DNA of 64,000 bases from Chrysomallon squamiferum (taxonomy: Eukaryota > Mollusca > Gastropoda > Neomphalida > Peltospiridae), in the NCBI GenBank assembly GCA_012295275.1, contig CM022679.1:31489337-31553336 (forward strand). The letters run 5' to 3'. Numbering within the stretch: position 1 is the first letter of the stretch; each line of letters begins with the position of its first letter. A program made the position numbers and the translations under genes. The notes under the pieces were generated by a model. It saw only the letters and a program-made list of their open reading frames with translations. It did no database searches and had not been told where the DNA came from. Below are positions 44,450 to 64,000 of the stretch, in pieces.

Positions 44450-44924
44450 AAACCAAAGCATTAACTTACTTTGATCCACTACTTAAAAAAACAACCAAAA
44501 AACAATCAAAAAATTAATAATCATAAATCAAAAATGTATAAATATAAAACATTTTAATTTATTATTATTATTATTATTTTCCTAAAGTAGAAATGAAATA
44601 CAATAGTAAGAAAGTTATCAACAAGTTAGAGTCAAACCATTAATTTACTTTGATTGGTTATTTACAAAAAATTAAACTTAATCATAACACATGAATATAC
44701 AGATATTCACAACATTTTTTGTTTTTCTGTTTGTTTGTTTATTTTAAAAAAGAGCAAAAATAAAATAAAATAATAAAACATATATGTATACATTAGGGAC
44801 AAAACATTAATTTACTTTGATTAAAAAATTAATTTAATCATAAAACAGATATATATATATTTTTTAATAACTATAAAAGTTTAATTTACTTTGATAAGTT
44901 ATTTTACAAAAAATTAAATTTCCC
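44450..44924. repeat. Degenerate repeats built on ATTAATTTACTTTGAT
   Basis: ATTAATTTACTTTGATT followed by GGTTATTTACAAAAAATTAA recurs four times (near 44460, 44640, 44810 and 44880) with 70-180 bp spacing. It directly precedes the satellite array. Confidence 0.75.
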
Positions 44925-46640
44925 TTAGACTTAATGTATTAATCTGTAGTGTCATTACTAATGTTTTTAAAAAAAGAAAATATGTATTTATTTATTTTTA
45001 GTATGAGCAGTAAAGGGGAGTAACTCCTGTTTTAAGGAATGTCGAAAATATATTTCTAAAGAGAATATTAAATTAACGGTCGAAGGGAAATAATTCATGA
45101 CGCATAAAGAAAACAAGAGTTATTTCCCGTAGACTGTTAAATATTAATCTGTAGTGTCATTTCCAATGGTATAATTATTATTTTTTTTTTATAATGGATG
45201 TATCTATTTATTTTCAGTGTGAGCAGTAAATTTACGATCTAAGGGGAGTAACTCCTGTTTTAAGGAAAGTCGAAAATGTAATTGTTTAGAGAATATTAAA
45301 TTAACGGTCAAGGGGAAATAATTCTTGATGCCTAATCAAAACAAGAGTTACTTCCCCTAGACTGTTAATTTGCCATTTCCATTTTTTTTTTTTTTTTTTT
45401 TTTTAAATTATAGATTGATTTATTTTCAGTATGAGCAGGAAATTAATGATTTGAGGGGAGTGACTCCTGTTTTAAGGACAGTCGAAAATATATTTCTAAA
45501 GACTAAAGAGAATATAAAATTAACGGTCTAAGGGAAATAATTCTTGAAGGATAAAAACGAATTATTTTCCGTAGAGTGTTAATGTATTAATGTGTAGTGT
45601 CATTTGCAAGGCTTTTTTTTGAAAAAAAGAAATTTGATATATTTATTTTCAGTATCAGCAGTAAATTTACGATCTAAGGGGAGTAACTCCTGTTTTAAGG
45701 AAAGTTGAAAATATATTTGTAAAGAGAATGTTAAATTAACGGTCAAGGGGAAATAATTCCTGATGCCTAAACAAAACAAGAGTTATTTCCCTTAGACTGT
45801 TAGTATATTAATCTATAGTGTCATTTCAATTTTTATTTATTATTATTATTTGTTTTTATATATATATTTTTTTAAATTATGGATTTATTTATTTCCAGTA
45901 TTAGCAGTAAATTTACGGTCTAAGGGAGTAACTCCTGTTTTAAGTAAGGTCAAAAATTAATTTCTAAAGACAATATTAAATTAACGGTCAATGGGAAATA
46001 ATTCTTGATGGCTAAACAAAACAAGAGTTATTTCCCTTAGACTGTTAGTATGTTAATCTATAGTGTCATTTCCATTTTTATTTATTATTATTATTTGTTT
46101 TTATATATATATATTTTTTTAAATTATGGATTTATTTATTTCCGGTATTAGCAGTAAATTTGCGGTCTAAGGGAGTAACTCCTGTTTTAAGTAAGGTCAA
46201 AAATTAATTTCTAAAGACAATATTAAATTAACGGTCAATGGGAAATAATTCTTGATGGCTAAACAAAACAAGAGTTATTTCCCTTAGACTGTTAGTATGT
46301 TAATCTATAGTGTCATTTCCATTTTTATTTATTATTATTATTTGTTTTTATATATATATATTTTTTTAAATTATGGATTTATTTATTTCCAGTATTAGCA
46401 GTAAATTTACGGTCTAAGGGAGTAACTCCTGTTTTAAGTAAGGTCAAAAATTAATTTCTAAAGACAATATTAAATTAACGGTCAATGGGAAATAATTCTT
46501 GATGGCTAAAAAAAACAAGAGTTATTTCCCTTGGACTGTAAATGTACTAATCTATAGTGTCATTTCCATTTTTTTTTAATTATTATTATTTTTTTTATAC
46601 AAAATTATGCACTTATTTATTTTCAGTATTTTAGTATATA
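44925..46640. repeat. Seven-copy satellite, 212-247-bp units with internal inverted repeats
   Basis: The core GGGAGTAACTCCTGTTTTAAG recurs at 45018, 45246, 45458 (as GAGTGACTCC), 45681, 45926, 46173 and 46420. Spacings are 228, 212, 223, 245, 247 and 247 bp. The last three units are nearly identical and the earlier ones diverged. In each unit a right arm ACAAGAGTTATTTCCCTTAG lies about 100-120 bp on. Its reverse complement (CTAAGGGAAATAACTCTTGT) matches the left arm (CTAAGGGGAGTAACTCCTGT), so each unit can fold back on itself. A partial right arm at about 44920 shows the array starts with a truncated unit. Confidence 0.9.
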
Positions 46641-50333: not shown

Positions 50334-50930
50334 TTTTTTTTTTTTTTTTTTTAAATATTTCGTTACGTAGTTAAAATTAATATTAAATATGACTTGTTTT
50401 GGTCAATGTAACATTTAAATTTTTTTTTTTATTAGTAACTAGACTGTTAACATGAGCAACTTTTGTTTCAACGGAAAACTGATAATTTATTACTGAACAA
50501 AAATAAATATAAATAAATAAATAAATAAATAATAAAGATACATTTAAAAGAAAAGAAAAAAAGAATAGAAATAGGAAAAATATATTTTATAAGTGAATAT
50601 ATATTAAGCACATACTTACAAACAGGATTAAATTCGAAATACGAGGCTCCACAGTATACAAGGCTCTCTGTAGCATAGACACACACACAGAGATTCATAC
50701 ATACACCTGCAGAAACATAGACACCTATACATATGAACAAACGTATCAGTTACACACACGACTGTTATTCATCAGTAATTCAAACGGTAAACACGAATTT
50801 AGTAAAGTGGACATTTTCATAAAGAGGGCACTCAGATACAAACACTGCAAAAAACTGCAATATGTCGTGGATATGGAAGGATTATCATGAAAATTATTAA
50901 CACTGAAATAAAAATATCACTTTAATAAAC

Positions 50931-50939
<9 letters not shown>

Positions 50940-50978
<39 letters not shown>

Positions 50979-52164
50979 TTTTCAAAACGACTTTCCTGCT
51001 TTATATCAATTATTATTAGTAGTATCAAAGGTTTAATCAAAGTAGGATATATTAATATACTTTCTATATACTTTTCTGGTCAGTGTTTATGAACTAGATA
51101 TAGTGTAAATGTCAGTAATTTATATGTTACAGTTTGTTTAACAATATTTAAACTGTTGTAATAATTTACATGTCAACGTTTCAGATTTTTCTTAACGTCA
51201 CTGTAGTCTTGTTGAAAGTACAATAATTAAAAAACAAAACAAAACAAAAACTATATCATAATAATTTTAAGAAAACAATACAACAGAATGATTAAATGTT
51301 ATATGAAATCTGGATCATATTAAAACTGTTATTTTGATTATATATCAACATTTGTATGTAGCTTTACTTTCAATTATGTGAATAGGGGTTCACCATTTCC
51401 AGTTTATATATGTTTTAGTTGTTTACTTTTTGTACACCAGTGTCTGTCATCAAAATTATAACTAAATTAATCTTTGACTATAATAATATCTAGAGACTGA
51501 ATAAATATTCATATTTCACATACTATTATTAAAATGATAAAAAAAACGAACACCAAAAACCCCATCTAAAAAAAAACCCCACGTACAAAACCAACAAAAA
51601 ACAAACAACAAAACAAAGAAAAAGAAAAAAGAAAAACAACCGAATATTCATAGTCAATACATTTATAGTATTATTACATTTTAATATCTCATAAACATTC
51701 TTATATTACATTTCACATTCATTATCTAGATACACAGCTGACTGAAATTCCAAAAAATTAGTTGCAGTCTATTTATGAAGTAATAATTTATTTTAACAAT
51801 TATTTCCTAATTACTTTGAAAAATCAGAATAGGTAGATTTTATATTAACTATACTAGAACTTCAGGAGAAAAGGGTAAGCTGAAAAGAAAAAAAAAAAAC
51901 AACCATGAACTACCTAAAATTTAACAGTTCAGAAAATCTTTTGCGTACCTATAAATATAAAATAAAATAAACAAAATGAAAAGTAAAATGAATAAAATAA
52001 AATAAAATAAAATATCATAAAATAAATAAATAACAATTAAGTCAGATAAAACTTCAGGAATATGAAGGAAATACAATAATTATGATATTTTGCATATGTT
52101 TAAAGTATCACAGTGTGGTAGATTTTTGTTAACAGTAATGAAGAACGGTAAAAATGTATAGATG

Positions 52165-52199
<35 letters not shown>

Positions 52200-52380
52200 T
52201 TGTATAAATATATATATGTGTACATATATAAACATCTATTTATGTATGTATCTAGCAATAACTATAAGAATGATAATAATAAGGAAAATTAAAATTAATA
52301 CAGTTGCAAAGAAATCATGTATTTTTTCTACAGAACTGTAGCTCATAAAAACTATTATTTACCCTAACACCGAACTGAAT
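50940..52380. repeat. Segmental tandem duplication, unit 1 (~1.45 kb)
   Basis: Ordered matches to unit 2 include CTTTATATCAATTATTA, CAAAGGTTTAATCAAA, GTCAACGTTTCAGATTTT, AATAAATATTCATATT and TAATTACTTTGAAAAATC. All lie about 1.45 kb upstream of their partners. It begins with an AT microsatellite (50935-50976). No coding exon recognised. Confidence 0.7.
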
Positions 52381-52842
52381 ATTTTTTTCTCCCTAATTCA
52401 TCTGTTGTAATCAGTAAAGTATAATTTTAAAAATTTCCTTCCTCCTTTATGTCAGTTATTACAAAAATTTCAAAGGGTTTAATCAAATCAGAATATAGTC
52501 ATTTTCTATACAAGTTTCGTCTGATTAAGTTCAACATATGGCTTAAATGTCAATAGTTTATACGTTCAAGCTATTTCACTACTATTATAACAGTCAAAGT
52601 TATACAAAGTAGAATGTATACTTCAGGGACAGTTTATCTAGGAAAAAGACAGAGTCAGTAGATTATTTGTTTCTGTTTATCTACGAATATTTTAAAAATT
52701 AATTTGCATGTTAACGTTTCAGATTTTGCTTGACTTTTCAGAGGTCATATTAAAACTCTTTTACAATAAGAATTTATATAAAAAAAAAGAAAACCAAAGA
52801 AAAAAACTTACAGCAATTGCATTGCATGTTACTAAAACAATT

Positions 52843-52883
<41 letters not shown>

Positions 52884-53400
52884 GACTTCAGAATATGTTA
52901 ATCAAATTCATTACATGTATTTTGATCTTTTTCTATTACAGGGTTTGTCTGTAAGTCCAATCATTAGACCTAGTAACTAAATTAATATTTAATTTACTCA
53001 TCTAATAAATATTCATATTGATATATGTATATATATTTGTATTATACTTTCAAATAACCCATATATTTACATTGTAATTAAAACTATAACAATAGCAAGT
53101 TATATCTAAGGAATATTAATATTTCCATTATTAAATAACTTTTTGCTATTATTAAGTTTATAACAACAGTAATAGTGTAATCTCATAAATGTTCACCACT
53201 AAAATTTCATATTAGTTTCATATAAGTCCACAGATGGTTCATTGTATATACACATAGTTAAGATCTGTTTATAAAATAATAATTACTTAGTTAATTACTT
53301 AGAAATCTAAATTGGAAAGTTTTATTAACAAAAGTAGGTCTTCAGATTTATTACAGATTTCTGTGAGATATACGTATCAGGTGATCTAATTCTATATTCA
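52381..53400. repeat. Segmental tandem duplication, unit 2
   Basis: Partner of the unit starting at 50940. Ordered matches: CTTTATGTCAGTTATTA, CAAAGGGTTTAATCAAA, GTTAACGTTTCAGATTTT, AATAAATATTCATATT and TAATTACTTAGAAATC. Divergence is substantial, so the duplication is not recent. It contains an AT run at 52850-52880. Confidence 0.7.
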
Positions 53401-53409
53401 TGCACTGTG

Positions 53410-53418
53410 TATAAAAAG
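53410..53418 (+). promoter_or_regulatory. TATA-box-like TATAAAAAG
   Basis: TATAAAAAG lies in TGTGTATAAAAAGAGGAG, followed by a purine-rich stretch resembling a leader. It may be an upstream promoter for the peptide gene at 54178, although a second TATA box lies nearer the start codon. Confidence 0.35.
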
Positions 53419-53583
53419 AGGAGATTTTTTTGTGAAAAGCAAAGACGAATCCAAGAGAAGAGAAAGTTTTAAAGAAGAATCAGAGAAAATATTTGTCTTC
53501 ATTCACTAGTTTCACATTCCTTTACATTTAAGTCTATATTTATATATATATTTATTTAACAAAGAAAATTATATTATGTGTTC

Positions 53584-53587
<4 letters not shown>

Positions 53588-53613
<26 letters not shown>
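53588..53613. repeat. (GT)n microsatellite
   Basis: Pure GT run upstream of peptide gene A. Confidence 0.95.
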
Positions 53614-53619
<6 letters not shown>

Positions 53620-53854
53620 CTCACTCTACATTCATACATAAAGTTGTCTCGGTTACCGATAGATATCGTCGTTAGCCTTCTAAGTGCACAAAATAAACAC
53701 ATCCATGCATACATACACACCCTATTCTCTTGTACTCACTGTAGGTATAATAGTGTTATACAACTATAGTTTTTCACATATTTGTTTACTTATATATATA
53801 AACATACTCACATACAAAAAAAACACACCTAGATACACAGATACATACATACGG

Positions 53855-54010
53855 TTTTCTTGCGGGCCGAGTGTTTTCGGAGTTTGGGGAAATGGGTGTC
53901 ATACGCTGGCATCTCTTCATCAACGTCTGACGGGGTTTGTGAGGTCGCGACTGGACTTTGTCCTGTTACGTTAGAGCGTTCCCGAGTGTTACCTAAGGGT
54001 AGAGTCTAAT
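53855..54010 (+). promoter_or_regulatory. GC-richer block upstream of peptide gene A
   Basis: About 150 bp with many CpGs (GCGGGCCGAG, GTCGCGACTGG, TTCCCGAGTG) stands out from the CATA-repeat surroundings. It ends just before the TATA box at 54017. It may be a proximal promoter or a captured repeat fragment; I see no tRNA-type A/B boxes. Confidence 0.35.
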
Positions 54011-54016
54011 CAGACG

Positions 54017-54024
54017 TATATAAG
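54017..54024 (+). promoter_or_regulatory. TATA box of peptide gene A
   Basis: TATATAAG in CAGACGTATATAAGACTGAG lies 161 bp upstream of the gene A start codon. This would place transcription initiation near 54045-54050 in a CATA repeat and give a leader of about 130 nt. Inferred from motif and position only. Confidence 0.4.
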
Positions 54025-54177
54025 ACTGAGAACATACATACATACATACATACATACATAATACATACATACACACACATATATATATATACTCAATGAT
54101 ACAGATATACACACACATACACACTCTTTCTGAGTAATAGTTTACATAATAAATTTACAAAAAAATATCTGTTTCAA

Positions 54178-54835
54178 ATGAAAGTATTTCAGCTCTCAGT
54201 TGTAATGTTTCTTCTGTTGGTGCTTAATTCATCTCCGATATTAGCTACTGTTACGTATTCAGAATGTGTGGAAAAATGCAGGTAAGTCTACAATCGGCTT
54301 AACAGGTTCAGTAATTAGAAGTAATTTGTATCAAAAGCGAATCTTCGATCACGTTAAAAAAATGTGAAAATATTGTAACACCATTTCTCTTGCCTATTAC
54401 ATATATTATATATTCAGTTTATCACTTCTACACACTTTAATAGTAGTATGAAAGCTAGTAAAACAGATAATATTGAAGATTCTGTAAATATAGATGTTTT
54501 ATAAGGTATATAATATAAAAGAAAAATCTCTATCACGTTCGTATTTTATTTTTTATTTTATTAGTGGTTTCTTGCCAGATCCTTCGTAAGTATCATTTTA
54601 TTATTATTCTATTATTCTATTAGTCTTTAAACTGCGTGTAAAACCCAACACACTACTACTATTATACTAGTAAAACCCAACACACTACTACTATTATACT
54701 AGTAATACTAATACCACTACTACAACCTTCAGTATTATTAATATTACTACACTGCCAATACAGTATATTATACTACCACAGCATTACTACCATACTTCTA
54801 TTATACTAACAAATATTGCTGCTATTGCTATTGCT

Positions 54836-54876
<41 letters not shown>

Positions 54877-56228
54877 GCTAACATTATTATTATCATTAGT
54901 AGTAGTAGTCCCATCACTATTAAATATAATTCTTTCAGATTAACTGTACTCTATAGTATCACTACATTACTTCCACACTACTACCATTTCTACCATAGCT
55001 ACTACTTTTACACTAGTACTATAATATCCTGTATTAGTGCTATTGCTATTACTGTTATAATGCTGTTACTATTAATATTATCACTTCTAATGGTGGTTCT
55101 TTCAGATTAACTGTAAGGCAAAGTGATATATGTATACATTATTAAAATACTTTATACTGATTGTTGATGTTCTGTATATCATCACTGGCCACATTTTTCA
55201 GGAAATGCCCAAAATGCTGTGCTGATGTTGAAGAGATTGGAAGTAAGATGAATTTTATTTTCTTAAAGAATTTTACACAGGCACAGGCACAGACAGACAC
55301 GTACATACGCTGAGGCTAATGTACTCTCACATACACACACACACGTATATATGTTTTTTACAGACATAGACATGGACATACAGAAATGAACAAACACGAC
55401 TGTTATTCATTGTAAATGATTTTAGTAAAGTGAACAGTTTACACGAAGTGGTCATTCAGACACATACATACGTACATATATATATATATATATATGAATC
55501 TGCAGATCCTGTACATACGTATGTGATGTTGCATATATTTTAGAGAATATAATAATAAAAATATCTCCTCGTTCAAGCTTTTGCTGGTATTCTGAAAGTT
55601 TCGATTATGTATGTATCATTTGCATGAAATTTCACCAATTAAGAATCATAAAATCACCAATTCAAAAGAACAGCAGTAACATTAACAGTAATTATAAACA
55701 TGATAATAACAATAACAGTATAATAATAATAATAAGATCCCAGCTATAACAACAAAAACAATAACAATAATTATAATTTTATTTTAAAATAAGCCCAGTT
55801 ATATCATTTTAATAAGAATCTCCATTTTTTTTCAAACATCTCTGCCTTCGAAACCAAATTAGACCAATAGCTGATCACATTGTTTAGCTATAGTCATAAC
55901 ATCCCAAATATTTAGAATAAAGTATATGGTAGGACAAATATTACTATTATCATTAAATTATTATACCACTACAGCGATTTGAAAAGATGTGTGTGTGTGT
56001 GTGTGTGATAAATGCATTATAGAGTAACTGGGCTTTCTCATAGTAAATATTTTCAATTGTTAAAGAACGTTATAATGTCGCGAATATTTATTCTTATTTA
56101 ATGAAGATTTATTAGAAAGGTTACTTAATTTAGTAAAAAACAAAAGTAATAAATAAAATGTGTATATGTGTGTGTGTGCGTGCGTGTGTTTCATTTAATA
56201 ACAATAACAACAACAACAACAACAATAA

Positions 56229-56259
<31 letters not shown>

Positions 56260-56724
56260 AAGAAGAAGAAGAAGATGATGAAGAAGAAGACAAAGACGAA
56301 GATACAGAAGAAAAGAAGTATAAACATTTTTTAATTCAGTACAATCGTTAACATATTTTGTTTCCTGCAAAATATGCAATATTAGTGAATCATATTATAA
56401 AAATTATTAACACTGAAAGAAATACATCACTTTAATAAACCTCATTTTAAATACTTTTCTGGTCAGTGTTTATGAAGAGAAATAGTGAGTAAATATGAGT
56501 AATTTATATCTTACAGTTTAACAATATTATAACAATTGTAATCATTTATATGTCAACGTTTCAGATTTTTCTTTACGTCACTGAAGTCTTACTGACAATA
56601 TTTATGATAATTTTAGCAAAACTACATCACAATAAGCTTGCATATAAGCTGAAAAAATGGTGGACATAAGCTCAAAGATGTTTCAGCATATAAACTACCG
56701 AATGAGCTGCATTCTTCAAGTTAG
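54178..56724 (+). CDS. Gene A: small cysteine-containing secreted peptide, micro-exon gene
   Basis: Proposed exons: 54178-54281, 54565-54585, 55202-55242 and a less certain terminal exon 56687-56724. They join in phase to 67 aa. Residues 1-23 form a clear signal peptide: MKVF, then a hydrophobic core VVMFLLLVL, with cleavage expected after ILA. The mature part has five cysteines, at about 30, 34, 44, 47 and 48 (ECVEKC then KCPKCC). The second exon is 21 nt, lies in phase 2 at both ends and has a strong acceptor (TTTTATTTTATTAG) and donor (GTAAGTAT). The third exon ends in phase 1 at GTAAGA. The terminal exon ([12 protein letters not shown], stop) follows a TTTCAG acceptor. An odd cysteine number suggests a dimer, a free Cys or a wrong terminal exon. 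An alternative 3' partner is discussed in the findings. I recognise no homologue; a venom, mucus or immune-type secreted peptide are all possible. Confidence 0.55.
54565..54585 (+). other. Gene A 21-nt micro-exon
   Basis: TGGTTTCTTGCCAGATCCTTC is flanked by TTATTAG and GTAAGTAT. Being symmetric in phase 2, it could be skipped without shifting the frame, removing seven residues (SGFLPDP). Confidence 0.55.
54620..55120. repeat. CTA/TAC trinucleotide-rich intron of gene A
   Basis: Contains a direct duplication of GTAAAACCCAACACACTACT (54638 and 54669), a (CTA)n run at 54835-54875, and two copies of TTCTTTCAGATTAACTGTA (about 54930 and 55098). Confidence 0.8.
55380..56640. repeat. Partial third copy of the 50.6-53.4 kb duplicated sequence
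   Basis: ACACGACTGTTATTCAT (55395), AAAATTATTAACACTGAA (56399), CTTTTCTGGTCAGTGTTTAT (56455) and GTCAACGTTTCAGATTTTTC (56552) match 50759, 50891, 51069 and 51173 in order. Larger insertions separate the blocks, including the AAG repeat. It lies in the last intron of gene A. Confidence 0.7.
56229..56292. repeat. (AAG)n/(AAC)n microsatellite
   Basis: CAACAACAAC grades into AAGAAGAAG for about 60 bp. The poly-Leu/Phe frames on the minus strand are artefacts of it. Confidence 0.95.
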
Positions 56725-56949: not shown

Positions 56950-57385
56950 CTCCATACATACATACATATGACATAGATAAGACATACATATATGCTTACA
57001 CCTATACAAACATATATACACACAGACACACATACATATATACACATGTACATTCAAATGTATATATGTGTTTATATATATATACAGACAGATGTACATA
57101 CATAGATACATATACATACATACAAACATATATACATACACTTTGTCAAGAAATGCACACTCATACACACACATCTATATACATATCTATACATGAATAC
57201 ATACATGCTTACCCTAATACAAACATATATATACACAGACACACATACATATACAGACATGTGCATACATATGTGTATATCTATGCACACACATGTACTA
57301 CATACATATATACATATACATACATACCTATATACACTTTTATGTTCTTTTTTTCTAATAAGCTATAGGTAGTAAGATAGATAAC
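56950..57385. repeat. Left copy of a recent segmental duplication (partner 63540-64000)
   Basis: A CATA-rich block ending in the unique sequence ACTTTTATGTTC, then CTAATAAGCTATAGGTAGTA and AGATAGATAACTG, is nearly identical to the last 450 bp of the window, offset by 6,613 bp. The matching unique 3' part shows common descent, not chance microsatellite similarity. Confidence 0.9.
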
Positions 57386-57439
57386 TGTTCATGCATTTAA
57401 AATTCAATTATTTTACGTAATCTTCTTAGTAGCTGTTAA

Positions 57440-57715
57440 AATAGAGGCAGACAGACAGAGTGTATGACAGATGTACAGATTAAAATATGTCAGTTTTCTT
57501 TTTAAGCTGTAACAATTTTAATATGTTAGACTGATTTATACTTTTCTGTCGTAGTACAGAATAATATAATATTCAAATCTTTGATACAAAATATTTTATT
57601 ACATTCGTACATGATTTTAAAAAGCTCGTGTAATCGATATCATAGATATTCTTCCAAGAAGGCTGTTGAATAACACAACTGTTTTTGATATTTTCACATG
57701 ATATATATACATTTT
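57440..57715. repeat. ~280-bp tandem duplication, copy 1
   Basis: Matches 57755-58020 in order: AGATTAAAATATGTCAG, AATATAATATTCAAAT, GATACAAAATAT, CATGATT-TTAAAA, GCTCGTG, TTGAATAACAC and GATATTTTCACAT. Non-coding. Confidence 0.85.
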
Positions 57716-57754
57716 ATCATTAAAGTATCTCGACATTAAAGAAATTTAAAGGAC

Positions 57755-58020
57755 AGAAAGACCGTGTGACAGATATAGAGATTAAAATATGTCAGATAAC
57801 TTTCTAAGCTGTCATAATTTTAACATTTACTGCCAGATTTGTAATTTTTTGTCGTTGTAAAGATTAATATAATATTCAAATGTCTGATACAAAATATGTT
57901 ATTACATTAGTACATGATTATTTTAAAAGGCTCGTGCATTCGATATAGTACACTTTCTTCCTGCTAGTTTGTTGAATAACACTACTGTTTTCGGTAAGAT
58001 ATTTTCACATTTTATATATA
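57755..58020. repeat. ~280-bp tandem duplication, copy 2
   Basis: Second copy of the unit described at 57440. It ends about 215 bp before the first exon of gene B. Confidence 0.85.
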
Positions 58021-58249
58021 TTTTTTAATGATCCCGACACTTCTAATAAATTTCATGAAACAGTATTCACAATCATTTAATAAGACAATGTGTTGGATTT
58101 GATAAATAATCATCCTATAGTAGATACTTCATATATTATAATAGTCATTATATTAATAAGCGTAAAAAGAAAACAAATGTATATTTTAATCACTAAAAAA
58201 TATATTTATTTCTCTAAGAATCTGCATGTTTCAGTTGACCTGGTTTGCA

Positions 58250-60667
58250 ATGTCTGTACTGAAACTGAAAATGTTTCTCGTCTTACTAATTTTGGGATCA
58301 GTGGTGGCCGTGTCAGCTGTTGAATGGGAACCTTACAAACCACTGTAAGATTTATTTTAGCTGTCTTCCTATGTGAATCCAAATGTAAATTATTTTATTT
58401 TGTAAGATTTATTTCTGTTCTTCTTACTCAATAAATATCAGACAAGGTTAGAAATTTCAAGACGAAGGATTCCAGATTCAGACTATTTAAATGTGTCTTT
58501 GTATATCCTATGCTCGCTGTTATTTACAAGTATATGTTATAGAGAAGGAACTAATTCCATTCATATTTTGTGTAAAAGGCTTTATTATATTATTATATAT
58601 ATTTCTTTTTTCCACATGTTTCAGTCCACCGTGAGTATAATTTATCATTACATGACATTCACACAATATTTCGGTCCTGTATAAAGAAACATACTGTATC
58701 AAGTAAACTAATAGCATACAAACTAAAATTAGGAAAAACAATCTGTGAAATAGTGTTTCCTTCTAATCCAATAATAAAAAAGAATTAGAATTATTAAGAG
58801 TTGAGAATCAGTTTATGTTTCTCTTTCTTTTTCTGTCTTTCTTTGTTTTGTTTTCTTCCACAACCGTAACAACTTAGACCCAAGTGGAAATGGAAATGGA
58901 AAAAAATTAACGTGCTAATCAGAGCAAGCTGTTGTGAAGCACGTATTAGACCCAAGTTGTTATTTTACTAAATTATACTCATATCAGTCTTCACTTTTCA
59001 AAAACAGATTGATGTTTTATAAGTGAGTATCAATTTATCTCCACACAGAAGTGTGTGTGTGAGAGAGAGTGGCAATCAGCAGCAAAAACAACAAAATAAT
59101 GATGATGATAATACTAAATTGTACTAATATCAGTGTTCACTTTTACAGATACAAAAGGAGTATTGTTAGGTGAGTACAGCCAAACCACCTACACCACAAC
59201 TGCAACCGCCAACACAAAAAACAACATAATCAACAACAACAACAATAAGAATAATAATAATAATAATAATTGATGATTCCGATGAATATTATATGTGTTG
59301 ATGAATAGTATGTGGACAGCGATGAATGGTAATAGTAAGAAATGTGATAATTATTTCATTATTATGTCTGCTGAAAAATTGATTTTTATTTTTATTTATG
59401 TGTTCCCTTCAGAGAATGGTATGTGTCAATTATCAGTAGGGAACTTAACTGTATTTACAACAGTACCAAACAAATTCTTACATCAAAATTGAAGTAACAA
59501 ATACACATCTGACCTGTTGTAATTTTATGCACTTTAATATAAATATTTTTAAATGAATTTTGAGAAGACTAACCATGAGATGGATCCAAATTTACTTTTA
59601 AGTTCCGATACTTATTATTTGATTGATAATTGTTGTTTCTCTTCAAAATATTAAACAAACAAACAGCCTGGCAAGTCTCATTCTCTTAAATTGTAAGACA
59701 ATTTAATTCAGCAGAAATATTATATATTGGGTCTTAGTTTTGTAAAACCAGAAACCATTAAAAACAAGTCTCTTTGATATATTCGTAAGTTAATAGAGAG
59801 CACCCCACCTGGAAAAAGAACTGAATGGGGATTTCATGCAGTATGAACATAAGGGCATTAAAACAGACGACAGTGATAAAAAATAAATTGTTAAAAAGGA
59901 CCTCATTATATATGACAATGCTGATAATGCTGAATTCATTTTCTAACAAATGGACACTCAATCAGTTTATGCTTTTTAAACATTCACACTTCTTTTGCTG
60001 TAAATGTATAATGTTTTCAATCCCTGTCTAAGTGATGTCCATTATCCTTACTATTGTACTAATTCAGCACTTTTTTCTTTACTTTTATTTTACTATTTCT
60101 ATCAGGCTTACATAAAATAATAATAGTAAAATAAAACGAAAAACTTAGTTTCCATGATTATTTATCTTTATAAAACATGTACAGAGCTGGCTTGTAAGTC
60201 TCATTCTCTGAAACTGTAAGACAAATTACATCAGCAGAACTATTATACTGGGTTTTAGTTTTCGTAATACGCATAGAAACTATTAAATATAACTGTCACT
60301 GAATTGCACCGGTTCGGAATAAAATTATATTTTTTAATGTTGACAGGAGGCAGTTCCACCATTTAGAAATACAAGAATTCAGTTTCAGAAGACCGTACAA
60401 ATGTCCAAGCTTATGATTTAAAAATCTCAAAAAATAAGTGAAACATTTCACATTACTGTCTAGCACTTTGTAAATTCATACCACAAAGGTGAAGATATAA
60501 TCACGTTTGTGAACAAACCCACGACAAAATCATACTCACATTAAATTTCCTAATTTATCCTTCAGACAGTATATATATATTTTTTTCCTTTAACAAAAGA
60601 CAATAATGTATATTACAGTTTATCTAATGCGGACTATAACAAAATACATTATAAGAAAAAAAAAATG

Positions 60668-60699
<32 letters not shown>

Positions 60700-60809
60700 A
60701 ATAATAATAATTTAAAAAAATGATATTTAAATTTCTAGAAGATATACTGAATTTAAATTCAAATCGTTTTTCTCCAAATCTTAAGAATATCATGTGTTCA
60801 GTTAAATAA

Positions 60810-60868
<59 letters not shown>

Positions 60869-61497
60869 CAACAACAATAATAATAATGATAATACTCTTA
60901 CACAGCAGTTCAGATAAACTTAGTATTTTAAAGACGATGTCAAAATGAAGAGAAAAGATCGGAACAGTTCGTTATCAATAGGTGTATAGAGGTCATCTCA
61001 AGTAAAATAAAACAAACATGTCTCCGAAATAAGAAAAAATGTAATTTGTATTTTCAGGAGAGGCGCACTACCTGTTATCTCTGATTTGCTTCACATCAGA
61101 AGTTGTAAGTGAAGTTATTTTTGTCTAAACTAATACAAGAAAGAAAATGTTTATTTTTGTGGATACTTATGTACGTAACTAAGCATATATCACTCAGTGA
61201 ATGTATGTATGTATGTATGTATGTATGATTGTATGCATGCATATATGTATGTAGATGTATGCATAAACGTGTGTATCTATGTATGTAGGTATGTCATCCA
61301 TGTGTGTATGTGCATCTACGTATGGATAGATAGATAGGGACTGAAGAATGAATGGATATTGATAAAAATAATGTCTCATTTAAATTTCTAAATTCTTTAA
61401 TTATTGCCGGCAGAGAGCTGATATTATGTATTTATTTACTGTTTTTCTCGTTTCAGTGTCAGGAAAAGAGGGAGAAAGCAAGATGAGTTCACGATAA
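58250..61497 (+). CDS. Gene B: secreted peptide precursor encoded by micro-exons
   Basis: Proposed exons: 58250-58344, 58625-58630 (6 nt), 59008-59022 (15 nt), 59149-59169 (21 nt), 61058-61104 and 61457-61497. All are GT-AG. The exon junctions up to 61058 are all phase 2, then phase 1, giving 225 nt and 74 aa with no internal stop. Residues 1-23 are a textbook signal peptide: MSVLKLK, then core MFLVLLILGSVVAV, with cleavage after VSA. The mature part (24-74) has no cysteine, an aromatic-proline start (EWEPYKPLPP) and dibasic KR (41-42) and RR (46-47) sites, and ends KMSSR. AATAAA overlaps the stop (61496). The exon starts after a TGTTTCAG acceptor at 58234, so a 5'UTR exon lies upstream. A prohormone-like precursor or an effector peptide fits; no homologue is recognised. 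The phase-consistent chain of symmetric micro-exons resembles schistosome micro-exon genes. Transcript proof is lacking. Confidence 0.6.
58625..58630 (+). other. Gene B 6-nt micro-exon
   Basis: TCCACC lies between an excellent acceptor (TTCTTTTTTCCACATGTTTCAG) and the donor GTGAGTAT. It adds two residues (LP within PLPP) in phase 2. Confidence 0.5.
59008..59022 (+). other. Gene B 15-nt micro-exon
   Basis: ATTGATGTTTTATAA is flanked by AAAACAG and GTGAGTAT, symmetric in phase 2. Read alone in another frame it would end in a stop, so its use depends on phase. The 40 bp upstream match those of the next micro-exon. Confidence 0.5.
59149..59169 (+). other. Gene B 21-nt micro-exon
   Basis: ATACAAAAGGAGTATTGTTAG is flanked by CTTTTACAG and GTGAGTAC, phase 2. 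It encodes the KYKRSIV part including the KR dibasic site and the first Arg codon bases of the RR site. Confidence 0.5.
59413..59418 (+). other. Candidate optional 6-nt micro-exon of gene B
   Basis: AGAATG lies between TGTGTTCCCTTCAG and GTATGTGT. It is symmetric in phase 2, so it could be included without a frameshift, changing RR to REWR at the junction. Only splice-signal evidence supports it. Confidence 0.3.
59665..59765. repeat. ~105-bp repeat in gene B intron, copy 1 (partner 60180-60290)
   Basis: AAGTCTCATTCTCT, GTAAGACAA, CAGCAGAA, TATTATA, GGGT-TTAGTTTT and AGAAAC-ATTAAA recur in the same order about 520 bp downstream. Confidence 0.8.
60180..60290. repeat. ~105-bp repeat in gene B intron, copy 2 (partner 59665-59765)
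   Basis: Second copy with scattered substitutions. It lies directly before a candidate alternative terminal exon at 60347. Confidence 0.8.
60806..60888. repeat. (AAT)n microsatellite in gene B intron
   Basis: Long AAT run with a CAA interruption; a shorter AAT run sits at 60667-60710. Confidence 0.95.
61198..61340. repeat. (TATG)n-rich tract in last gene B intron
   Basis: GTATGTATG repeats grade into GTGTATCTATGTATG-like sequence. It is the same CATA/TATG family seen upstream of genes A and B. Confidence 0.9.
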
Positions 61498-61603
61498 TAA
61501 AATATTGTGTGATGAAAACACTTAAGTGTCTATTATGAATCTGTTTAACCTATTTCTATCATTCTATTTAGATAAAATGTCATAAAATCATTAACGATTT
61601 AAC

Positions 61604-61677
<74 letters not shown>

Positions 61678-63535
61678 CATTTTCTGTAAGCATTATCAGT
61701 ATTTTATTTTCCTAAATGTAAAATAATATATATTTAAAAGACAAAATTTTCACTGAATAACATTGACTCATCTTATTTATAGTGGACTTAAATGTTCTTC
61801 TGTTGTTTTTTCGAAACTGAATGTCCTCCAAATCAAGAAAAGTGATAACAATTAATTTTATACTTTCTTTTTCTTTCCCGAATCAAACTGGTCTGCACTT
61901 TGTAATTACAAACACAATGTCTATACATTGGAATGCAATGAAGCATCATATTTGTTAAACAGATTGCTAGTGGCGCATTAATAGTGTCTAAAACTAAAAC
62001 ATATCTATATACAATATAAAAATAGTATAGCAGTTAGACTCAATATATCGGTAAATGATATTTCTCACTTTTTAAAATATAATTTGTAAAATGTTTAACG
62101 AGATTATTCTTATTTCCGAGAAAGTAACAATGCCGTTGACGAGATTTTAACGTATGACACCCATATATGCATGTGCATGTGCATGTATGTACGTATGTAT
62201 GTCTGTATGTCTGTATGTATTTGTGAGATTAACTGCGTAAGGAGCCTATAGAAATAACTGTCTAACAAAAAAATGTTTTGGATTAGTTGGATCATATTTA
62301 TAATGACACGAATTACATACAACATACCTTGTTCCTTCTTGTTAATTACAATATTCGAGTAAATGTCACTTTTGTAAATCAGTTTTTACATAGCACTGAC
62401 TCCTTAATGAACAACATGCATGTATATAATCTATGCACGTTTATTTCTTTCTACATGTGAGTCTTTAATTGAGTGTATTCACCTGTCCCTTTAATCAATT
62501 ATATAGCTAACTGTATATCTATGCATCTATGCATCTGTCTATCTGTCTATCTCTCTATATGTCTGTCTATCCATCTATCTATCTATCTATCTGTCTATCT
62601 GCATTTCTATCTAAATATATAATATATGCATAAATGGGTTGAATATGTCTCATAATTAATCTTGTAACGATTCATAAAACCTTTTTTATTTTAAATTTCT
62701 GAATAATAATCATCAAAAATAACAACTCACTAAAACTGATGTTCAATGACGTAAAAATACTGGTTTCAGTAACACATATAAAGTGATTAGTAAATATGAC
62801 TCATGTTGAAAGATGTCGGTGGACGAAAACATTCAAATATGGTGCGCGTCAGTTTAACGACAGTACAGGAGGCAGGGTAATGACCACCTACTCTCTAAAA
62901 ACTAACTGAGTGAGAGTCAGACATGGAGATTACAATAAACCAAATATTCTATGATAAAAAAAATAAATGTTTATTCTGAATATTCATTTGGTTTTTATGC
63001 TCTAGACTGAGAAAATATACGATTTGTTCTTTTTTGTGTGTTTTTTTTAAATTTATTTTTGTAATATATACCATTACCACTATTAAAACATTAGATAAGA
63101 CTAAAAACGCCTCTAATATTTAAAACATGAATATTAATACTGTCACAATTTTAATAACAGTAAAAATATCTTCTTTATTATGGCACCATAAAAATATGAA
63201 ATTACCAAACATGACTAATTATTAAATAAGTGAATAAACTTTAATGACTTATGTCCTCAAAAATAAAATAAAATAAAATTAACAAGTTCTCTCCATGTTG
63301 CAGGTCAGTTGAGGGTCACAACAAATCACAGTCATCATCAGGGCTCATAATGGTCATAAACCATATCAGCATTTTCCCTACACCTGTCAGATTTATAGTT
63401 CTGTACATTTCTATTTCTGACATTTACTGAATAATCCCCTTCCCTTGACATGCTGAATTTTCTTTCTTTATATCATTTCTACCTGTTTTTATTATTATTA
63501 TTATTATTATTATTAATTTAGAGATCAATGTCAAA
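61498..63535. other. Flank downstream of gene B, no gene seen
   Basis: Contains (CT)n at 61609-61673, TATG/CTAT tetranucleotide runs (62160-62220, 62510-62610) and (TTA)n at about 63488-63517. No phase-consistent exon with a signal peptide was found. Confidence 0.6.
61609..61673. repeat. (CT)n microsatellite
   Basis: About 65 bp of uninterrupted CT, 112 bp after the gene B stop codon. If transcribed it would lie beyond the AATAAA at 61496. Confidence 0.95.
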
Positions 63536-63539
63536 AAGT

Positions 63540-64000
63540 GCACACACATATCTATATACATATCTATACATACATACATATGACATAGATATGAGAAACA
63601 TATATGATTACACCTATACAAACATATATACACACAGACACACATGCATATATACACATGTACATTCAAATATATATATGTGTTTATATATATATACAGA
63701 CAGATGTACATACATAGATACATATACATACATACAAACATATATACATACACTTTGTCAAGAAATGCACACTCATACACACACATCTATATACATATCT
63801 ATACATAAATACATACATGCTTACACCAATACAAACATATATATACACAGACACACATACATATACAAACATGTGCATACATATATGTATATCTATGCAC
63901 ACACATGTACATACATAGATACATATACATACATACATACATATATACACTTTTATGTTCTTTTTTTCTAATAAGCTATAGGTAGTAAGATAGATAACTG
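63540..64000. repeat. Right copy of a recent segmental duplication (partner 56950-57385)
   Basis: Near-identical to the left copy, including the unique end GGTAGTAAGATAGATAACTG that runs to the last base of the window. The duplicated unit therefore continues beyond the edge. Confidence 0.9.

Follow-up and report, generated by a model that had tools for sequence, protein, structure and literature searches.

The window analysed here, a 64-kb stretch of a gastropod genome (C15:31489337-31553336), carries on its + strand a micro-exon gene, gene B, that very probably belongs to a clustered family of short, linear secreted peptide precursors, as predicted from sequence. The copies show tandem duplication, gain and loss of micro-exons, and a divergence focused on the tail of exon 1 and on some micro-exons, the introns being more alike. 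Six exons of gene B were re-read; they span about 3.2 kb and splice in frame into a 74-aa precursor followed by a TAA stop, and the 6-, 15- and 21-nt micro-exons are all symmetric, in phase 2. A KR site lies within the 21-nt exon and an RR site spans its junction with the next exon, of 47 nt. A 74-aa precursor with KR and RR sites had been proposed in the first-pass annotation of this window, and splicing of the re-read exons gave the same product. Its signal-peptide exon, phase-2 micro-exons and stop overlapping AATAAA were likewise recovered by exon re-reading.

Searches covered the 404.6-Mb host genome, and all match counts are lower bounds. A protein search returned at least five exon-1 matches, including gene B itself. 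At least 13 matches were obtained with exon 1 at the DNA level, all on contig C15 in three groups (27.65-27.68, 31.09-31.19 and 31.55-31.60 Mb), and a search with the 3' end also gave at least 13, some of them partial. Gene B is part of a tandem duplication: about 437 bases at the window end are 96% identical to the duplication unit, and copy B2 was found 6,611 bases downstream of gene B, as this window-end duplication had predicted. The absence of a recognised homologue, stated in the first-pass annotation, therefore holds outside this genome, within the reach of the searches, but not inside it, where exon 1 has at least 13 copies. An end-to-end alignment was made of nine copies (B, B2, B3, E, F, G, H, C1 and C2). 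Copy D, with matches in the 3' half alone, was left out of this alignment, and the distant copies I, J, K and M, which show scattered partial matches past exon 1, were compared in that exon only. Other partial copies are a partial exon 1 at 31577987 and 3'-end fragments at 27656814, 27667519 and 27671777. The features of the unit and of gene B are as follows, in window coordinates.

56951..63562, + strand: tandem-duplication unit of 6.6 kb with gene B; the next copy begins at 63563 and continues past the window
57984..57993, + strand: end of a candidate 5' untranslated region (5'UTR) exon, with a donor after 57993 (GTAAGA) that pairs with the acceptor before 58235
58235..58344, + strand: exon 1, with 15 nt of 5'UTR, ATG at 58250, the predicted signal peptide and the first mature residues, ending in phase 2
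58319..58344, + strand: hypervariable tail of exon 1 and start of the mature peptide; mean pairwise identity 0.51 vs 0.90 in the flank
58625..58630, + strand: micro-exon 2, 6 nt; both splice sites in 8/9 aligned copies
59008..59022, + strand: micro-exon 3, 15 nt; this length in 8/9 aligned copies
59149..59169, + strand: micro-exon 4, 21 nt, with the KR site; present in B, B2, B3 and C2 of the nine copies
59413..59418, + strand: candidate optional 6-nt exon, weakly supported; its acceptor is CAG for copies B, E, F, G and H
60179..60193, + strand: remnant of a 15-nt micro-exon, E4c, or a shorter version of it (60185-60193); acceptor G lost in B
61058..61104, + strand: exon 5, 47 nt (50 nt in F, G and H), start of the C-terminal extension; both splice sites in 7/9 aligned copies, with lengths in frame
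61457..61497, + strand: exon 6, end of the coding sequence and TAA stop; at least 13 full or partial genome matches to the 3' end
61496..61501, + strand: AATAAA overlapping the stop codon (61495-61497); the same in 8/9 aligned copies, G reading N

The CAG acceptor before exon 1, the ATG and a phase-2 donor were kept in 13/13 copies. In B, B2, B3, H, C1 and C2 this check took an earlier donor; the modelled one, GTAAGA, was present in 9/9 aligned copies. All 13 exon-1 products display a hydrophobic leader with seven invariant columns. Splice-site scores of gene B, which like all splice scores given here come from approximate, untrained matrices, ranged from 4.1 to 11.2, the weakest being the acceptor of the 15-nt exon (4.1; sum 11.0). 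The spliced frame had a codon score of 11.2 bits vs a null mean of -45.8 (standard deviation 11.7).

The level expected by chance was estimated within the window. On the + strand, three of the nine best symmetric, phase-2-open micro-exon candidates of the 64 kb fell between exons 1 and 5, namely 58625 and 59149, both in the first-pass annotation, and 59413, unlisted there. Of 400 simulated 64-kb strands, 11 had at least three strong candidates inside a span of 2.76 kb. At a threshold of 10.9, chosen so that the 15-nt exon counts, a signal exon was followed by at least four in-phase candidates in 2 of 600 simulated strands and by at least three in 16 of 600; in the same scan the real + strand had four and the minus strand three. 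With a threshold of 11, the real + strand reached three, a value reached by 0/40 simulated strands. The earlier assertion that this layout is unlikely by chance was a fair one in view of the 2 of 600 strands, but not an overwhelming one from the window alone. The window by itself was suggestive of gene B, making it likely rather than certain, and it is the paralogues across the host genome that raise the gene model to near certainty.

Comparison of the copies also bears on the reading frame. In copies B, B2, B3, E, F, G and H, 30/30 gaps between pairs of copies within exons 1, 2 and 5 were multiples of three, although these gaps trace back to few events; for intron gaps no longer than 30 nt in the same seven copies, the corresponding figure was 66/452. 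None of the 136 splice combinations tested in these copies contained a stop. For this count the isoforms of E and F were built without exon 3 and those of G without exon 6, which reads N, and some optional exons were retained despite sites that seem to be lost in the copy concerned. C1 and C2 stood outside both counts: they differ from the other copies at exon 5, and the one combination tested for each is open, with another terminal exon and an earlier modelled TAA that again falls inside AATAAA. A comparative scan demanding both splice sites in four copies returned 15 rows, 10 of which had lengths that are not multiples of three and are not exons of the model, so that a kept AG...GT pair alone proves nothing.

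The micro-exons have not been stable. The units of exons 3 and 4 are a tandem duplication (58966-59117 matches 59112-59266, E 6.6e-11), a feature absent from the first-pass annotation, and exon 2 is absent from C1. The donor GT of exon 3 is lost in E and F and is a weak GTGTGT in B2, B3 and C2; this exon failed the comparative scan because its donors are lost or weak in several copies. E4c, with its acceptor lost in gene B, has 15 nt and both sites in B2, B3, E, F, G, H and C1. At the 59413 site, C1 has CAG with a 3-nt exon, and B2, B3 and C2 have GAG. Inclusion of 59413-59418 would turn RR into REWR. This exon was ruled out as a diversifying exon, its body not being hypervariable.

Divergence among copies was concentrated in part of the coding sequence. 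Mature-coding exons were less alike than whole-gene introns in 33/36 pairs; between B and B2, they were identical at 51/68 positions vs an intron identity of 0.970 (p=5.1e-11). Whole-unit introns were nevertheless dropped as the sole control, and local flanks were preferred, because the trees of intron blocks disagree. The pair G-H illustrates the contrast, with 0.976 identity over whole-gene introns but only 0.897 in the local flank near exon 1. Identity was lower than in the local flank in 35/36 pairs for the exon-1 tail, 24/28 for exon 2, 24/28 for exon 3, 5/6 for exon 4, 30/36 for E4c, 32/36 for exon 5, 12/28 for the 59413 exon and 5/36 for the leader; since copy pairs are not independent, these counts are descriptions and not exact probabilities. 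The drop below the flank was also ranked against sliding intron windows. For the exon-1 tail, 0/804 intron windows were as low. The drop of exon 2 (body identity 0.63 vs 0.92 in the flank) was matched by 19/897 windows, and those of exon 3 and E4c (body identity of the latter 0.44 vs 0.76) were equalled by just 5/857. Over residues 24-46, the proportions of nonsynonymous and synonymous differences (pN/pS) were 0.273/0.143 for B-B2, 0.368/0.068 for B-B3 and 0.178/0.032 for B2-B3, values resting on about 14-16 synonymous sites.

The predicted precursors share one order: leader, hypervariable segment, basic site and C-terminal extension. GKR, a cleavage and amidation motif, is found in copies F, G, H and C1. 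No cysteine occurs in eight predicted peptides from seven copies, and the predicted peptides of B3, E, F, G and H have net charges from +1 to +4. The mature linear peptide of gene B is perhaps VEWEPYKPLPPLMFYKY, and the predicted product of copy F would be QTPPTHNHKNPPIF-amide. The precursor would be secreted and cut at KR or GKR, releasing a linear, cysteine-free peptide, in some copies amidated. The exon-1 tail and the micro-exons would code for the hypervariable peptide, to be followed by the basic site and the C-terminal extension. As the micro-exons keep the frame, their gain, loss or skipping would leave the precursor intact, and the family may in this way change its peptide rapidly under diversifying selection. 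Amidation in molluscs was also assumed in PMC5577615.

Several observations weigh against this account. Taken alone, exons 3 and 4 score negative on codons (-5.5 and -4.0), and exon 3, which hardly varies among B2, B3, C2, E and F, may be unused or dead in these five copies. The leader barely exceeds its local flank in identity (0.91 vs 0.89). The divergence of exon 4 is not unusual, 202/855 intron windows dropping as much, nor is that of exon 5 (72/724), and the body of the 59413 exon is not hypervariable (586/897). Given the discordant block trees, gene conversion may explain part of the differences between copies. Copy E has no dibasic site in its shortest isoform, and the predicted peptides of B and B2 have a net charge of 0. 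Finally, a search of the protein database with gene B gave three candidates, none at E<=1, with a method that needs shared 5-residue words.

The best-known secreted micro-exon families are those of schistosomes and aphids, in which they are interpreted as tools of interaction with the host. The micro-exon genes (MEGs) of Schistosoma contain between 10 and 20 very short exons, whose lengths are 6-81 bp, most often 15 bp, and in most cases divisible by three (PMC10526429), and their mature part has a ratio of nonsynonymous to synonymous substitution rates (dN/dS) above that of the signal part (PMC4350168). Like them, gene B is predicted to be secreted and combines a leader, tiny frame-preserving exons amid longer introns and a more divergent mature part; most internal coding exons are tiny and frame-symmetric, as in MEGs, with 6, 15 and 21 nt in the copies that have them. 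Unlike these genes with their 10-20 short exons, gene B has four short internal exons and the family at most five micro-exon candidates. The phylum is another one, the KR/GKR layout is particular to the present family, and no sequence match was seen at E<=1 in the word-based search described above. The likeness to schistosome MEGs drawn in the first-pass annotation is consequently upheld for the architecture but fails for the number of short exons.

The proteins of aphid bicycle genes bear Cys-Tyr-Cys motifs, which are absent here. Bicycle genes have on average about 17 exons, with a minimum of 5, and resemble gene B by their many small internal exons of the same phase and as fast-evolving putative effectors (PMC9168663). 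With the printed coefficients of the bicycle classifier and its cut-off of 0.72, gene B scored 0.991 if its exons are taken as phase 2 and 0.009 if taken as phase 1, the phase convention being unclear to us from the text. Unlike bicycle genes, the present family is hosted by a gastropod, as indicated by CNOT3 (see below), and not by an aphid.

Similarities in precursor layout were found with the myticalins and modiocalins of mussels, which have a conserved signal and C-terminal propeptide, a hypervariable linear mature peptide and a dibasic site, and which are multigene, with an intron just 5' of the ATG (PMC5577615). This is a comparison of layouts, no sequence having been compared with a myticalin. 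C1 and C2, with another C-terminal extension, and E, which lacks the dibasic site in its shortest isoform, are exceptions to the myticalin type; as to the cationic mature peptide of that type, the predicted net charges are +1 to +4 for B3, E, F, G and H, and 0 for B and B2. The mature peptide of myticalins is encoded by a single exon, followed by a phase-1 intron, and their extension is anionic (PMC5577615). In the present family, the segment coding for the peptide is divided among phase-2 micro-exons. The resemblances to MEGs, bicycle genes and myticalins are best regarded as resemblances of design which do not imply homology, and for none of these memberships did gene B pass all tests.

The pattern of diversification together with the likeness to myticalins points to a microbe-facing role, and defence or microbe-facing peptides, as in mussels, are tentatively proposed as the function of the family, with a confidence slightly short of even. 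A more specific possibility, which we consider quite unlikely, is an independent gastropod micro-exon peptide system facing the bacterial symbionts of the host, in which diversity would arise by duplicating, losing and rapidly altering exons of 6-21 nt within introns that are stable otherwise. If true, it would be a molluscan counterpart to the peptide families that control symbionts.

A family of signalling peptides (neuropeptide, hormone or pheromone) with dibasic and amidation processing is a doubtful alternative. The short linear peptides, the KR and GKR sites and the predicted amidation of the products of F, G, H and C1 would suit such a family. Signalling peptides usually conserve their active sequence, however, and the segment coding for the peptide is here the most divergent part; pheromone families would be less affected by this objection, being able to diverge fast. 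It is also somewhat unlikely that the family is mainly a generator of isoforms by skipping of variable exons, as proposed for schistosome MEGs. The symmetry of the micro-exons and the open frame of all tested combinations are consistent with it, but variation between copies already supplies diversity, and the weak or lost donors and acceptors of some copies suggest loss and not regulation.

Conotoxin precursors of gastropods combine a conserved signal, a hypervariable, cysteine-rich mature part and gene duplication, and a venom or gland toxin family of this kind would show the same partition and the same duplication as the gene B family. To our knowledge, venom is not known in such snails. The lack of cysteine in all the predicted peptides examined sets them apart from conotoxins and makes this explanation very unlikely; the intron phases differ as well from the phases 0, 2, 0 on four exons given for 5/6 conotoxin families of a preprint (PMC12236594). 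A non-coding tandem repeat or a cluster of decaying pseudogenes, as could be evoked by the partial copies and the microsatellite-rich surroundings, is extremely unlikely in view of the frame-preserving gaps, open frames, retained splice sites and exon-confined divergence.

If gene B and its paralogues are secreted peptide precursors as proposed, finding this design again in a snail would point to its repeated origin wherever rapid change is demanded of secreted peptides. The introns, which are similar among recent copies, would provide a built-in yardstick by which selection could be measured for each tiny exon. Automatic annotation struggled with such genes even in schistosomes (PMC10526429), and families of this type may therefore be undercounted. 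Among the papers listed in a literature search with thin coverage of subscription journals, no title or abstract opening described such a family from a mollusc.

The molluscan origin of the window, suggested in the first-pass annotation, was corroborated by CNOT3, assembled manually from its exons at 12.1-27.6 kb of the window; its top match in the protein database was from Gigantopelta aegis, with 83% identity over the full query length. Gigantopelta belongs to the order Neomphalida, and the host is a gastropod, probably close to that order. As no near-identical entry to CNOT3 was present among the best 120 listed, host proteins seem to be absent from the protein database, and the empty search with gene B consequently speaks of other species only. 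Gene B had no match in Pfam, and the window had none in Rfam at gathering scores.

Further observations concern the ends of gene B. The candidate 5'UTR donor scored 8.1 and had the same position in 5/5 copies of the alignment made for it (B, B2, B3, C1 and C2). It is contained in a tandem duplication of about 300 nt (57450-58053, 78%) located just 5' of exon 1 and seen in copies too. An in-frame alternative donor in phase 2 stands right behind the leader, at 58311, in the same five copies (score 4.7 to 9.2), and its use would drop the mature segment of exon 1. At the other end, the acceptors at 61457 and 61463 form a pair 6 nt apart, the second of which would create a TGA at the junction and a protein ending in ...HIRS. 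On a larger scale, the cluster of gene B (31.55-31.60 Mb) is within about 160 kb of the end of C15 (31,706,904) and is perhaps subtelomeric.

Upstream on the + strand, gene A (54178-55242) consists of a signal-peptide exon, whose donor is strong, a symmetric 21-nt exon, whose donor is weak, and an exon of 41 nt, and bears cysteine. It gave no candidate in the protein database search, and its paralogy with gene B was unsupported, the DNA score being reached by 63/1000 shuffles and the protein score by 215/1000. The surroundings of gene B are rich in microsatellites. Diverged direct repeats extend over 50845-56635, 5' of gene B (50992-51264 with 56361-56635; 50973-51865 with 52420-53345), and a tandem array with a repeat of about 247 nt occupies 44507-46630.

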